A stretch of DNA of 64,000 bases from Natronospirales bacterium (lineage in GTDB: Bacteria > Pseudomonadota > Gammaproteobacteria > Natronospirales > REEB76). Below, in pieces: positions 12,946 through 18,319 of the stretch (positions are counted from its first letter, which is position 1; each line of letters starts with the position of its first letter). Location: positions 62,001 through 126,000 of the forward strand of contig JAKAXB010000002.1 in the NCBI GenBank assembly GCA_021816765.1, given 5' to 3'. The notes beneath the pieces are model-generated. The model had not been told where the DNA came from. It saw only the letters and a list, made by a program, of their open reading frames with translations, and ran no database searches. Both the position numbers and the translations under genes were made by a program.

Positions 12946-13155
12946 ATGATGACCGAAATCATGTTTCTCGTGGACGAGGTGCCCGAGGGCGGTTATCAGG
13001 CGCGCGCGCTGGGTGAATCCATTTTTACCGAGGCGGATAATCTGGAAAGTCTCCATGTTCGGGTACGCGACGCTGTGCAGTGCCATTTCGAGCAGGATCA
13101 GGCGCCAAAAATCATTCGCCTCCACTTCGTCAGAGATGAAGTGATTGCCTTATGA
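12946..13155 (+). CDS. HicB-like antitoxin (short form)
   Basis: This protein of 69 residues begins MMTEIMFLVDEVPEGGYQA and contains ALGESIFTEADNLESL, the pattern of the small HicB-type fold (beta strand, Gly-Gly turn, then an A-x-x-GxSIFTEADT-like segment). It ends EVIAL. Homologues are often mislabelled as 2-oxoisovalerate dehydrogenase subunits. It is too short for the C-terminal DNA-binding domain of full-length HicB. It overlaps the HicA gene by four bases (ATGA), as expected for an antitoxin-toxin pair. By inference it neutralises the toxin through direct binding; autoregulation without a DNA-binding domain is unclear. Confidence 0.75.
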   Translation: MMTEIMFLVDEVPEGGYQARALGESIFTEADNLESLHVRVRDAVQCHFEQDQAPKIIRLHFVRDEVIAL

Positions 13156-13394
13156 AGTTGCCCCGCGCTGTAAGCGGGGCAGCGCTAGCCAAATCCCTGC
13201 AGAAATTTGGATATCGAGCGACGCGCCAGACGGGCAGCCATATTCGGCTGGCCCGTGATACCCCGGACCAGCATCACATTACAATTTCCAATCATGCTCC
13301 GATACGAGTGGGCACACTATCCGCCATTCTGTCTGATGTTGCGCTGCACTTGAAGATGCCGAAAGAGAAGTTGGCTAGGCAGTTATTTGAATAA
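13152..13394 (+). CDS. hicA: HicA-family mRNA interferase toxin
   Basis: HicA toxins are small double-stranded-RNA-binding-like ribonucleases that cleave mRNA when not bound by the antitoxin. This one has 80 residues, with the family signature GYRATRQTGSHIRL, where His30 is the expected catalytic residue. The basic N-terminus MKLPRAVSGAALAKSLQKF is the first helix. Later come HHITISNHAPIRVGTL and an amphipathic C-terminal helix. The ATG overlaps the antitoxin stop. In this pair the antitoxin gene comes first, the reverse of the classical hicA-hicB order but usual for this short-antitoxin subtype. Confidence 0.8.
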   Translation: MKLPRAVSGAALAKSLQKFGYRATRQTGSHIRLARDTPDQHHITISNHAPIRVGTLSAILSDVALHLKMPKEKLARQLFE

Positions 13395-13628
13395 CCGACG
13401 TGGTGACTGGTCTTTGTTGAATTCCGTACCAAGTTGACCCACCATTTCAATCTTGGCTAACCCACTCTGATCGGCATTGGCCGTTGATAATGATGGAAAT
13501 TCCTGCGTATTGCGTGGGTCAGCGCAATTAAAATGGTGAGTAAAAAGGGGATAAAAATCAATAACCTACCAACAGCGCCAAAGGAATCACGGGGCGGCTC
13601 ACCGCTCCGGAGGCCTCACAGACGTGCT
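13395..13628. other. Intergenic region with possible mobile-element remnant
   Basis: No convincing gene is present. It holds an imperfectly placed inverted pair, TGACCCAC near 13433 and GTGGGTCA near 13518, with CCATTT and AAATGG close to the two arms. This is reminiscent of insertion-sequence ends, but no transposase fragment is seen. The region separates the toxin gene from the promoter of the c-di-GMP riboswitch. Confidence 0.3.
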
Positions 13629-13657
13629 TTGACCGGATGAAGTATTTGGTCTAGATT
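13629..13657 (+). promoter_or_regulatory. Sigma-70-type promoter of the riboswitch transcript
   Basis: TTGACC (13629-13634) and TAGATT (13652-13657) are separated by exactly 17 bases. The predicted start of transcription, about seven bases downstream at 13664, is directly in front of the riboswitch. The -35 matches consensus at five of six positions, the -10 at four of six. Confidence 0.65.
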
Positions 13658-13664
13658 GAACATA

Positions 13665-13751
13665 AATCGCCCAGGGCAAACCCGTCGAAAGACGGGGACG
13701 CAAAGTCACCGGTCTAAGGAGTAGCACTCTATGACAGCGGGATCGCCGACA
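13665..13751 (+). promoter_or_regulatory. Cyclic-di-GMP-I (GEMM) riboswitch
   Basis: The conserved core of GEMM-I aptamers is read directly: CAGGGCAAACC (13671-), the P1b hairpin CCCGTC-GAAA-GACGGG (13681-13696) with its GNRA loop, then GACGCAAAG (13697-13705). The second stem is GTCA/TGAC and GGAGT/ACTCT with the tetraloop receptor CCGGTCTAA, and AGCGGG closes the core. The closing P1 helix is weak and imperfect. It lies about 250 bases upstream of an EAL-domain gene, so its ligand is made and degraded by the class of protein it controls. The expression platform is not obvious: a hairpin follows at 13779 without a T-run. Confidence 0.92.
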
Positions 13752-13973
13752 GCCAAGCCTTATCCAGAAGCCTGCCGTCTTGTTTCCCGGACGCTGGGGA
13801 ACAAGGGACTTCCCTCCGTTTCCAAGACCTCTTCTCCCGGCGCCCATTTATCTGTATCCCGTGCCCGGTGGGCGCTTGCAGTCACGCGTGATCGGGGCGT
13901 ACCTCACCATCAAAAGACAGGCAAAGCATCCATGGCATCATGGTGGGAATGCCAGTACGGCCGCACCCGATGA
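13731..13973 (+). other. Possible leader ORF inside the riboswitch leader
   Basis: An 80-codon frame starts at an ATG in the 3' strand of the second aptamer stem, with AAGGAG eight bases before it in the 5' strand. It ends 28 bases before the EAL gene start. Its protein (MTAGSPTAKPYPEACRLV...) has no recognisable domain and a non-coding look. It is recorded because the position of the ribosome-binding site could make its translation ligand-dependent; it may equally be chance. Confidence 0.2.
13779..13805 (+). other. Leader stem-loop downstream of the riboswitch
   Basis: CTTGTTTCCC pairs with GGGGAACAAG (ten pairs, one G-T) around a seven-base loop. Placed 28 bases after the aptamer, it is the best candidate for part of the expression platform. 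There is no T-tract, so Rho-dependent termination or translational control is more likely than intrinsic termination. A second possible pairing is GCGCCCA (13840-13846) with TGGGCGC (13869-13875). Confidence 0.4.
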
Positions 13974-14001
13974 TTGATATGTATTTTTGAGGGCACGCCC
14001 C

Positions 14002-16935
14002 ATGCGGATGCACGCGCTATTGGATTCCCTGCGGACGCGGCTGCTGCTGTTCGTCACGCTGGCTGTGCTCCCGGCGCTGATCGCGATCGTGTATTCAGGC
14101 CTGCAACAGCGCAATGCAGCGGAGGACCACGCCCGGGAGCGGGCGCTCATCGCCGCAAGACATACGGCGGATGAGATTGCCAACGTTCGGGAGGACTCCC
14201 TGCTGATCCTGTCCATACTCACGAAAGTTCCCGAGGTTGCCGCGCTGTCGCCCTCCGACTGCGATTCGTTTCTCGCCAAGCTCTTACGGGATCATCCGGA
14301 ATTCGCCAACATTGGCGTCATTTCTGACGCGGGCCTGCTCGTGTGCAGCGCACGCCCCACCTCCGGTCCCGTCTATCTGGGGGATCGTGGTTATTTTAAA
14401 AATGCCATCGTATCCAAGACGATGGTCACCGGGATGTATCAGGTGGGCCGTGTGTTGCAGGTGCCCATGGTGATCTTCGCGGCGCCTGTTCTCGGTGCAC
14501 ATGATTTTGTGCACGCCGTCGCCTATGTGTCACTGGAACTGCGCTGGCTGAACCAAGTGGCTTCCAAGACCAACACCCCAGCAGGGGCATCCTTGCTGGT
14601 TCTCGACCGCCGGGGATTCATTCTGGTAAGACAGCCCGATCCGGAGAAGTGGGTCGGTCATAAAGCGGCCGACTTTTGCAAACCACATCACCTGGACTGC
14701 ATGAAGGGCGAAGGATTTATTACAAATGCCTGGCCGGATGGTGTCCGTCGGCTGTACGGATACAGAAGCCTGCAGGATCCGGATGGTGCTACGGCTCTGA
14801 CCATCCTGTACGGTATTCCGAAATCCCAGATCGTGGAGGCCGCCCGGAACGCGCTGATCACGCACCTGGGTATCCTGGGCGTCATCCTTTTTTTCATCTA
14901 CCTGTTCGCCTGGTACGGGAGCGACGCGCTCGTGCTGCAAAACCTGAAAGTCCTGTTGGCGGCGATCCGGGACATCCAAGCCGGCAAGACCGATGCCCGT
15001 GCCGACATCCCAGGCCGGCACGAACTGGCGCTCATCGGTAACGCGTTCAACGACATGGCGGAGAACCTCGCGACAAAATCCCGGCAGATATCCACACAGC
15101 TGGAGCGTATTCGGCGCCTGCTGCGTATCTACCGCGTGCTCAGCGCCATCAATGGGTCGATTCTGCGTACGCATGCCGAAGAGGAGCTGGTGAGTGCCGC
15201 CTGCCGCATCGCGGTCGAACAGGGTGGGTTCAAGATCGCCTGGATCGGTCAGGTTGACCAGCAAACGCAGTGGGTGACACCCGTTGCCCATGCCGGGATC
15301 GGTCGGGATGCCGTATATGCCTTGAGGATCTCCGCACGCGAAGACATCCCGGAGGGCCAAGGGACCGTCGGGACCGCGCTGCGTACCCGCGAGCCCGCCA
15401 TTGACAACGATATCGCGACCAGCACGCGGCTCACGCCGTGGCGGCATGAGCTGCTCGGGCTCGGCTGCCACTCCCTGGCGAGCTTCCCACTCCTCTACGG
15501 CGACGAACTCTACGGGAACCTGTCGCTGTATGCGGCGGAAAGGAACTTCTTTGACGAGGAGGAGGTCCGCCTGCTGCGGCAACTGGCTGCGGACACGGCC
15601 ATCGGATTAAAGAACATCCGCACCGAAACCGCCCTGCGGCAGCTGTCGTATTTTGATCCGATCACCGGTCTGCCCAATCGCCGGCTCTTCGAGGACCGGA
15701 CCGGCCAGATCCTGGCGCGGGCCCGGCGTGACCATGTGAAAGCCATGGTGCTCGCAGTGCAGATCGAGGAGGTCCACAGAATTGAGGACGCGTTGGGCCG
15801 GCATGTCGTGGACGGACTGCTGCAGGAAATCGCCATCCGGCTGAAAGCCCATGTCGATTCGAGCGACAGCATCGCCAAGCTTTCCCGAGATACTTTTGCT
15901 CTGTGCCTGATCGTCTATCCGGGCGAGGATGTCCTGGGCCTATCAGCAAAAATCATGCAGCTTTTCCCCCTGCAACTGACCGCAGGTGGCGAGCCGGTGG
16001 TGATCTCGGCCTGGGCGGGGGCCGCCCTCTTCCCGGCCGATGGGGACACGGCGGCGACGCTGATCCGCAATGCGGAGGTATCGCTGAGGAATCCCGCCCG
16101 TGAGTCAGGCGCCGTCTGCAGCTTTTATTCCTCCGGGATGGATATCCAGGCGGACCGGCGGTTCTCTCTGGAAAAGGAACTGCATTTCGCGATCGAGCGC
16201 AACGAATTGTCCCTGGTCTATCAGCCCATATTTGACCTGCCCGGTCGCCGGATGATCGGTGCCGAGGCCTTGCTGCGCTGGACCAGTCAAACGCTGGGAC
16301 CCGTGTCGCCGACGGAATTCATTCCCATTGCCGAGCAGGCCGGCCTGATTGTTCCCATCGGGGAATGGGTGCTGAAAGAGGGCTGTGCACAGGCATTGAA
16401 ATGGCATCCCGTTGGCTCACCGACTTTTCGCGTCAGTGTCAACGTTTCGCTCATTCAACTCCATGAGTCCGACTTTCTGGGTCGTTTGAAAGAGATATTG
16501 GCGATGCTCAAGTTTGATCCGAAGATCATTCCTCTCGCCGTGGAGATCACGGAAAGCGAGATGGCATATAACGTCGAAGAGACCATATCCATTTTACAGG
16601 CCATCCGCGCGCTCGGTATTCACATCTATATGGATGATTTCGGCACTGGGTACTCCTCGCTCGGCTACCTGAAGCGCATGCCGATCCATGCGCTGAAGAT
16701 CGACCGGATCTTCGTGAAGGACCTGGATAACGACTCCGGGGACAAGGAATTCATGCGCGTGATTGTGTCGTTGGCCAAGAGTCTTGGCCTGAGTGCCATT
16801 GCGGAGGGCGTGGAGACAGGACGGCAACTGGCTATCCTGGAATCCCTGGGGTGCGAGGCGATACAGGGGTATCTGCTCGGACACCCTGTGCCGCCCGATG
16901 GTATCAGCGCCCTTCTTGGCAAGGGCTTTGCCTGA
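14002..16935 (+). CDS. Membrane-bound c-di-GMP phosphodiesterase: Cache-HAMP-GAF-degenerate GGDEF-EAL
   Basis: The protein of 977 residues probably degrades cyclic-di-GMP. Two membrane helices (about 13-34 and 290-308) flank a periplasmic Cache-type sensor. HAMP follows (about 310-365, with PGRHELALIGNAFNDMAEN), then GAF (about 395-540) and GGDEF. The GGDEF active-site motif is replaced by SRDTF (628-632), so it should not make c-di-GMP, although FDPITGLPNRRLFEDR is kept. The EAL domain looks active: EALLRW (EAL at 755-757), NVSLIQL, EITESEM, DDFGTGYSS (from 878), KIDRIFVKDL and EGVET. ATG at 14002 has GAGGG eight bases upstream; the TTG at 13987 is rejected. A c-di-GMP riboswitch precedes it. 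Confidence 0.93.
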   Translation: MRMHALLDSLRTRLLLFVTLAVLPALIAIVYSGLQQRNAAEDHARERALIAARHTADEIANVREDSLLILSILTKVPEVAALSPSDCDSFLAKLLRDHPEFANIGVISDAGLLVCSARPTSGPVYLGDRGYFKNAIVSKTMVTGMYQVGRVLQVPMVIFAAPVLGAHDFVHAVAYVSLELRWLNQVASKTNTPAGASLLVLDRRGFILVRQPDPEKWVGHKAADFCKPHHLDCMKGEGFITNAWPDGVRRLYGYRSLQDPDGATALTILYGIPKSQIVEAARNALITHLGILGVILFFIYLFAWYGSDALVLQNLKVLLAAIRDIQAGKTDARADIPGRHELALIGNAFNDMAENLATKSRQISTQLERIRRLLRIYRVLSAINGSILRTHAEEELVSAACRIAVEQGGFKIAWIGQVDQQTQWVTPVAHAGIGRDAVYALRISAREDIPEGQGTVGTALRTREPAIDNDIATSTRLTPWRHELLGLGCHSLASFPLLYGDELYGNLSLYAAERNFFDEEEVRLLRQLAADTAIGLKNIRTETALRQLSYFDPITGLPNRRLFEDRTGQILARARRDHVKAMVLAVQIEEVHRIEDALGRHVVDGLLQEIAIRLKAHVDSSDSIAKLSRDTFALCLIVYPGEDVLGLSAKIMQLFPLQLTAGGEPVVISAWAGAALFPADGDTAATLIRNAEVSLRNPARESGAVCSFYSSGMDIQADRRFSLEKELHFAIERNELSLVYQPIFDLPGRRMIGAEALLRWTSQTLGPVSPTEFIPIAEQAGLIVPIGEWVLKEGCAQALKWHPVGSPTFRVSVNVSLIQLHESDFLGRLKEILAMLKFDPKIIPLAVEITESEMAYNVEETISILQAIRALGIHIYMDDFGTGYSSLGYLKRMPIHALKIDRIFVKDLDNDSGDKEFMRVIVSLAKSLGLSAIAEGVETGRQLAILESLGCEAIQGYLLGHPVPPDGISALLGKGFA

Positions 16936-17086: not shown

Positions 17087-18319
17087 TTATCGTAGTTGCA
17101 ACTCCTCCAGCAGGATCCGTCGAACATCAATCTGTACTGCCGCGGGATCAACAATTTCGCGTATCCCCCACTGTGTAGAGAGCCCGGCGGAATCAATGAA
17201 TTCCAAATTCAATGTCCGCCGTGGCAGTACCGCTTTCCCAGCGGGATCCCGTACCAGGAGCACGGTAGGATGCAGCCGTTTCTTTTCATCGGAAGCCACT
17301 ATGATTGCCAGGGCGTTATTCTGCAGGCGCACCAAACTCCCCAAAGGGTAAATTCCGATCCAACGTATGAACTTCTCGACCAGTTCCTTGTTGAAATGCA
17401 CCGCCGCACGTTTTGTCAGTCGCGCAACGGCTGCCGATGGAGTCAGCTGCGGACGGTAGCATTGGTCGGTGGTGTACGAGTCGTACACGTCGCATATTGA
17501 TACAAGCTGGACATAGTCGGGAATCATGTCACCCGTCAGTCCATCCGGATAACCGCTTCCATCCAGGCGTTCATGATGATGACGGGCGATGTCCAGAATT
17601 CTGGGATCAAGCCCCGTGCTGCTATCCAGGTGCGCGGCCGCATAGCCAGGATGCAATTTGATCAGTCTCCTTTCATCCCGGTTGAGCGCCGTAGGCTTGT
17701 CCCGGATATGCCTGGGTATTTTCGCCATCCCGACATCGTGCAGCATGGCGCCCTCGCCCACGACCCCCTGGAGCGCGGCGTCCCAGCCCAGGTCGGCTGC
17801 AAACCCGACCGCCAATATGGTGGTATTCATGGCGTGGCGTCCAATGGTCGCATCCTGTTCAGAAAGAATGCGCATCCACAGGCTGGTTTTCGGGTCGGCA
17901 GAAATGTCGTCAATAAGGTGGACCACAGCCTCGCGGGTATCACGCAGGTGTTCGCTCCGGTCACCCGGATCACTCTCGGCGAATTTCGTGAGTCTTACCA
18001 CGGCGGCATCGCTCTGCTGCCTGATGGTCTTTATACTTTTCCGAAGGGTGTCAAACCCTTTCCATTCTTTGATTTCTATAGTGATGGTGTTTCCACGAAC
18101 CGCACCGTGCAATCTCTCCTGAATAGCGGGGTCACTGCGCGACTTGAGATCATCCACGAATACATATTTGCAGCACTGCTTCAATTGCGTGAGATCGTCG
18201 TCATTCTCGATGATGAATCCCTGGAACAGGAAAGGTGTCCCGGCCCACGGCCGGTCCAATTCGGCGACGTACATGCCCTTTTCAAGTTGTTCGACGCGGT
18301 ACTGGATCTTCAAATCCAT
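17087..18319 (-). CDS. HD-GYP domain protein, predicted c-di-GMP phosphodiesterase
   Basis: The protein of 410 residues has an N-terminal DUF3391 domain (MDLKIQYRVEQLEKGMYVAE, with VFVDDL) and a C-terminal HD-GYP domain. Metal-binding and signature residues are present: His162, LHDVGM with HD at 194-195, His223 in KLHPGYAA, ARHHHERLDGSGYPDGL with GYP at 256-258, and SICDVYDSYTTD. HD-GYP enzymes hydrolyse c-di-GMP to pGpG or GMP. It is cytoplasmic, with no membrane segment. It converges on the EAL gene, so two c-di-GMP-degrading enzymes sit tail to tail, separated by 151 bases. Confidence 0.93.
   Translation of the reverse strand: MDLKIQYRVEQLEKGMYVAELDRPWAGTPFLFQGFIIENDDDLTQLKQCCKYVFVDDLKSRSDPAIQERLHGAVRGNTITIEIKEWKGFDTLRKSIKTIRQQSDAAVVRLTKFAESDPGDRSEHLRDTREAVVHLIDDISADPKTSLWMRILSEQDATIGRHAMNTTILAVGFAADLGWDAALQGVVGEGAMLHDVGMAKIPRHIRDKPTALNRDERRLIKLHPGYAAAHLDSSTGLDPRILDIARHHHERLDGSGYPDGLTGDMIPDYVQLVSICDVYDSYTTDQCYRPQLTPSAAVARLTKRAAVHFNKELVEKFIRWIGIYPLGSLVRLQNNALAIIVASDEKKRLHPTVLLVRDPAGKAVLPRRTLNLEFIDSAGLSTQWGIREIVDPAAVQIDVRRILLEELQLR

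Follow-up and report, generated by a model that had tools for sequence, protein, structure and literature searches.

The window, a 64,000-nucleotide stretch of a Natronospirales bacterium genome, carries on its forward strand a c-di-GMP-I (GEMM-I) aptamer between a promoter-like element and the gene for a predicted membrane-bound c-di-GMP phosphodiesterase (Table 1). The promoter ends 7 bases before the aptamer, and transcription is predicted to start at about 13664-13665, at the aptamer's first base. A sequence-only reading of the same DNA had called this promoter near-ideal. Its position is confirmed and its 17-bp spacer is ideal, but the second hexamer agrees at only 4 of 6 positions, so that near-ideal is too strong and we describe it as good. 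Of the four aptamers in related genomes, L037 and L038 have a similar element at nearly the same distance; the same scan found no good match ahead of L035 and L036.

Table 1. Features of the riboswitch locus, in positions of the window.
Feature	Position	Strand	Evidence
Sigma-70-like promoter, TTGACC-17-TAGATT	13629-13657	+	1 site with 9/12 consensus matches, 0.4 expected from shuffles of the region
c-di-GMP-I (GEMM-I) riboswitch aptamer	13665-13750	+	RF01051, 79.9 bits, full length
P2 with GAAA tetraloop (13687-13690)	13676-13701	+	Family alignment, pair list
P3 with tetraloop-receptor strand	13704-13744	+	Family alignment, pair list
Leader from aptamer to start codon, 251 nt, no intrinsic terminator	13751-14001	+	Coordinates, terminator scan
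Stable hairpin without T-run	13780-13804	+	z -3.25
C-rich, G-poor stretch, candidate Rho loading region	13808-13885	+	C/G 1.94
Likely Shine-Dalgarno GAGGG, 8 nt before ATG	13989-13993	+	Sequence, predicted fold
Gene for a predicted 977-aa membrane sensor c-di-GMP phosphodiesterase, dCache-HAMP-GAF-degenerate GGDEF-EAL	14002-16935	+	ATG in frame with the ORF end; Pfam, motifs

Upstream, a HicA-type toxin gene (12946-13394, forward strand) directly precedes the riboswitch region; a small ORF before it, without a Pfam match, may be the antitoxin. The roughly 147 bases at 13415-13561 (forward strand), before the promoter, have one counterpart in each of two congeners, at 80-82% identity (G007:C269:164-310 and G006:C69:25193-25293). 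Nothing in the surrounding part of the window matches the genes beside those loci, and the stretch matched no Rfam family.

The aptamer and its occurrence in relatives

The aptamer matches the Rfam covariance model RF01051, the check that the sequence-only reading had proposed, over model positions 1-87 of 87, with a score far above the curated cut-off of 35 bits (E 4.4e-14 over 64 kb). At lax settings, no further match above chance appeared beside it in 13390-14010. Of the aligned pairs, 21 of 22 are standard, the sole exception being an A-C mismatch at the base of P3 (13704-13744). The GNRA-type tetraloop of P2 and its receptor in P3, by which membership of the family is judged, are both present. 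The element is almost certainly a c-di-GMP-I riboswitch, and its placement ahead of an EAL gene, as first read from the letters, holds.

In this 2.58-Mb genome, 99% complete, it is the only c-di-GMP-I match detected, alongside 13 full EAL domains and one fragment, 22 GGDEF domains and 4 PilZ domains. A search for c-di-GMP-II riboswitches gave no match, but neither did its controls, so it carries no weight as evidence of absence. GEMM-I occurs in 4 of 12 genomes of the family. In the congener G007 the aptamer L035 precedes a gene for a surface-type protein with an SCPU (spore coat U) domain, and L036 in G006 sits at a similar locus. L035 thus shares genus and aptamer class with the window locus but has a surface-type target and a shorter leader. 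Of two aptamers in the family's other genus, one lies before a methyltransferase-family gene and the other before a gene without a Pfam match. Both the aptamer and this EAL gene are missing from G005, the closest relative when judged by the neighbouring GTPase (94% identity), and the stretch after the GTPase and its tRNA-Met gene varies between relatives.

The predicted phosphodiesterase gene and the rarity of the pairing

The 977-residue protein gives Pfam matches to dCache_1 (below that family's own cut-off), HAMP, GAF, GGDEF and EAL (PF00563, 222 bits), a fuller architecture than the EAL phosphodiesterase first proposed for the gene. The GGDEF motif is degenerate, reading SRDTF at residue 628 in place of the GG(D/E)EF of active cyclases, and cyclase activity is therefore not expected. 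The EAL motifs are intact (EALLR755, VNVS813, EITES848, DDFG878 within DDFGTGYSSL, LKIDR898, AEGVET934 and QGY955), so that the catalytic EAL, N, E, DD, K, E and Q are all present. With the GGDEF motif dead and every EAL catalytic motif in place, the protein is predicted to be a sensor phosphodiesterase whose EAL domain is active. MucR and MorA are among the proteins with the closest solved EAL domains. Among 19 genomes of the order, no protein is more than 37% identical to it from end to end, or more than 44% in any of the stretches reported, and a plasmid search returned nothing relevant.

The EAL gene is faced by a convergent DUF3391-HD gene (17087-18319, reverse strand), itself c-di-GMP phosphodiesterase-like. 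G009 has a copy with 70% identity in the neighbourhood of the same GTPase gene; there, an ABC-exporter-like gene set takes the place of the window's EAL gene.

c-di-GMP riboswitches usually feed the messenger into adhesion or motility genes. We collected 125 GEMM-I loci, each with some 4 kb of downstream sequence if its contig was long enough. The first 85 comprise the window's own, 4 from the family and 80 found in 370 genomes of the class; a second draw, on 397 genomes of the phylum, supplied the other 40. A same-strand downstream EAL domain occurs at one of the 125, that of the window, in a sample restricted to one class, favouring strong matches and including some short contigs. Weak GGDEF-like matches lie downstream at five other loci, two of them from one stretch. 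GEMM-I aptamers upstream of DGC and phosphodiesterase genes formed part of the ligand discovery (Sudarsan et al. 2008, as cited in PMC3971182 and PMC7266159), and those cases, as cited there, resemble the present one in placing the aptamer before a c-di-GMP turnover gene. Such placement has been described as rare (PMC6366702). The pairing of aptamer and phosphodiesterase is uncommon but precedented, and the class is well known; the literature searched held no description of this exact locus. Elsewhere in the class, one genome has three tandem c-di-GMP-I aptamers about 11-12 bases apart (G375:C5:265305-265595).

The leader and the expression platform

The long spacer of about 250 bases noted earlier is confirmed by measurement. 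The scan found no intrinsic terminator (hairpin plus T-run) between aptamer and gene; the same method gave a match at 22 of the 85 loci first sampled and none here. The strong hairpin previously placed at 13779 lies one base further on and is indeed followed by no T-run. Equal stability was reached in 3 of 300 shuffles, and its pattern has no second occurrence in the window. RNA that is rich in C and poor in G is where Rho can load. The C/G ratio of the 78-base C-rich stretch is above 99.5% of forward-strand windows, or 97.3% when both strands are counted.

In folding predictions the likely Shine-Dalgarno sequence pairs with 13902-13911 and is flanked by a helix of 13894-13900 with 13995-14001; the start site is occluded in both modelled aptamer states, although in accessibility it ranks 38 of 47 window genes and is thus only moderately inaccessible. 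A sequestering helix of 13894-13903 with 13992-14001 did no better than shuffles, and the accessibility is unexceptional. The outer strands of the aptamer (13668-13677 and 13736-13747) are also able to pair with 13838-13874 in folding; shuffled leaders did as well in 58 of 200 and 148 of 200 cases, respectively. Measured against dinucleotide shuffles of the leader, no switching helix scored better than chance, and we therefore claim none. The relatives offer no orthologous leader for covariation, only the aptamer and the upstream element having matches. The way in which the gene is switched is not visible in the sequence, which bears out the caution of the sequence-only reading on mechanism.

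Inside P3, a Shine-Dalgarno-AUG pair (TAAGGAG-AUG, 13715-13733) opens an 80-codon frame (13731-13973). Its AUG belongs to the aptamer consensus. As a coding sequence the frame was rejected: its codon score is -0.30, where coding sequence averages 0.24, and 14% of shuffles would be expected to leave such a frame open. It is conceivable, though a long shot, that P3 folded around c-di-GMP covers this pair and leaves the frame untranslated, so that Rho loads on the C-rich leader and the start of the phosphodiesterase gene is kept shut. The sensor would then work through a leader ORF that starts inside its own binding domain. For the principle there is a precedent in the Mycobacterium tuberculosis Mbox, whose control extends to a leader ORF and to Rho termination (PMC12810186). 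At five other loci (L085, L109, L113, L116 and L144), an AUG in the P3 region of the aptamer begins a frame of 267-808 codons; there, the main ORF as called from the sequence could start within the aptamer or be read in frame from it.

A candidate feedback loop and its polarity

In agreement with the sequence-only reading, we propose that the riboswitch forms a feedback loop on a phosphodiesterase of its own ligand. The mRNA of the membrane-bound sensor phosphodiesterase would begin at the aptamer, and c-di-GMP, once bound, would alter how strongly its own degrading enzyme is expressed; if the aptamer works, the loop follows. Because an intrinsic terminator is lacking, output would probably lie at translation initiation and/or at Rho-dependent termination in the C-rich leader. 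As an ON switch, the riboswitch would raise phosphodiesterase with rising c-di-GMP and so provide homeostasis. To the whole loop, ON polarity included, we assign a rough probability of 0.58, judged from sequence.

The polarity is argued from known systems. Vc1 (gbpA) and Vc2 (VC1722) of V. cholerae have the same aptamer class and contact bases as the window locus. The Vc1 leader is an ON switch whose transcription starts 244 bp before the start codon, with no apparent terminator or anti-Shine-Dalgarno (PMC4744006); it is similar in length to ours and likewise lacks an intrinsic terminator. The targets differ, being a chitin-binding adhesin and a tfoX-like gene in V. cholerae and a c-di-GMP enzyme here. 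Since Vc1 is the nearest terminator-less precedent, we favour ON over OFF polarity. With the opposite polarity, c-di-GMP would lower phosphodiesterase expression, and the positive feedback would give a bistable high or low state and no homeostasis. Class I OFF switches do exist, as in Cd1 (PMC9262584), and the Shine-Dalgarno-AUG pair in P3 would be occluded on ligand binding; the locus has no Cd1-type terminator, however, and with Vc1 pointing the other way the OFF polarity is possible but rather unlikely.

The absence of switching structure above chance in the spacer would also fit a decayed or uncoupled remnant that has lost control of the gene, as would a P1 of only about three pairs by eye (13667-13669 with 13747-13749) and a locus not kept in relatives. 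Against this, the full-length match and the intact contact bases show no sign of decay and the promoter is well placed, so that a remnant seems improbable. A role of the EAL protein as an enzymatically inactive c-di-GMP receptor, of the LapD or FimX type, is more improbable still: degenerate GGDEF-EAL proteins are many and the GGDEF motif here is SRDTF, but every EAL catalytic motif is present, and the LapD model scores 127 against a cut-off of 1020 bits.

The ligand is predicted to be c-di-GMP rather than cGAMP because the equivalents of the named Vc2 contact residues G20, A47 and C92 (PMC4744006) are kept, as G13675, A13702 and C13746 in our own alignment to the family consensus. cGAMP (GEMM-Ib) variants differ at essentially one base, with A at position 20, and A20G confers c-di-GMP selectivity (PMC6456294); with G at that position here, a cGAMP sensor is scarcely credible. 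The equivalent base is G in 117 of the 125 sampled aptamers and A in 6. The cGAMP riboswitches of Geobacter share the fold of the window aptamer but, unlike it, carry A at position 20 and use platforms of the terminator/antiterminator type (PMC6456294, PMC9262584). At another locus (L099, G089:C15:66531-66613), the aptamer has the cGAMP-type A at this position, and a weak GGDEF match follows some 560 nt downstream; it may be a cGAMP switch close to a member of the family that makes its ligand.

If the c-di-GMP feedback loop on the phosphodiesterase is confirmed, it would be a simple natural one, in which homeostasis (ON) and bistability (OFF) can be distinguished. For the organism, a riboswitch on one of its 13 genes with a full EAL domain would tune the messenger's own level.
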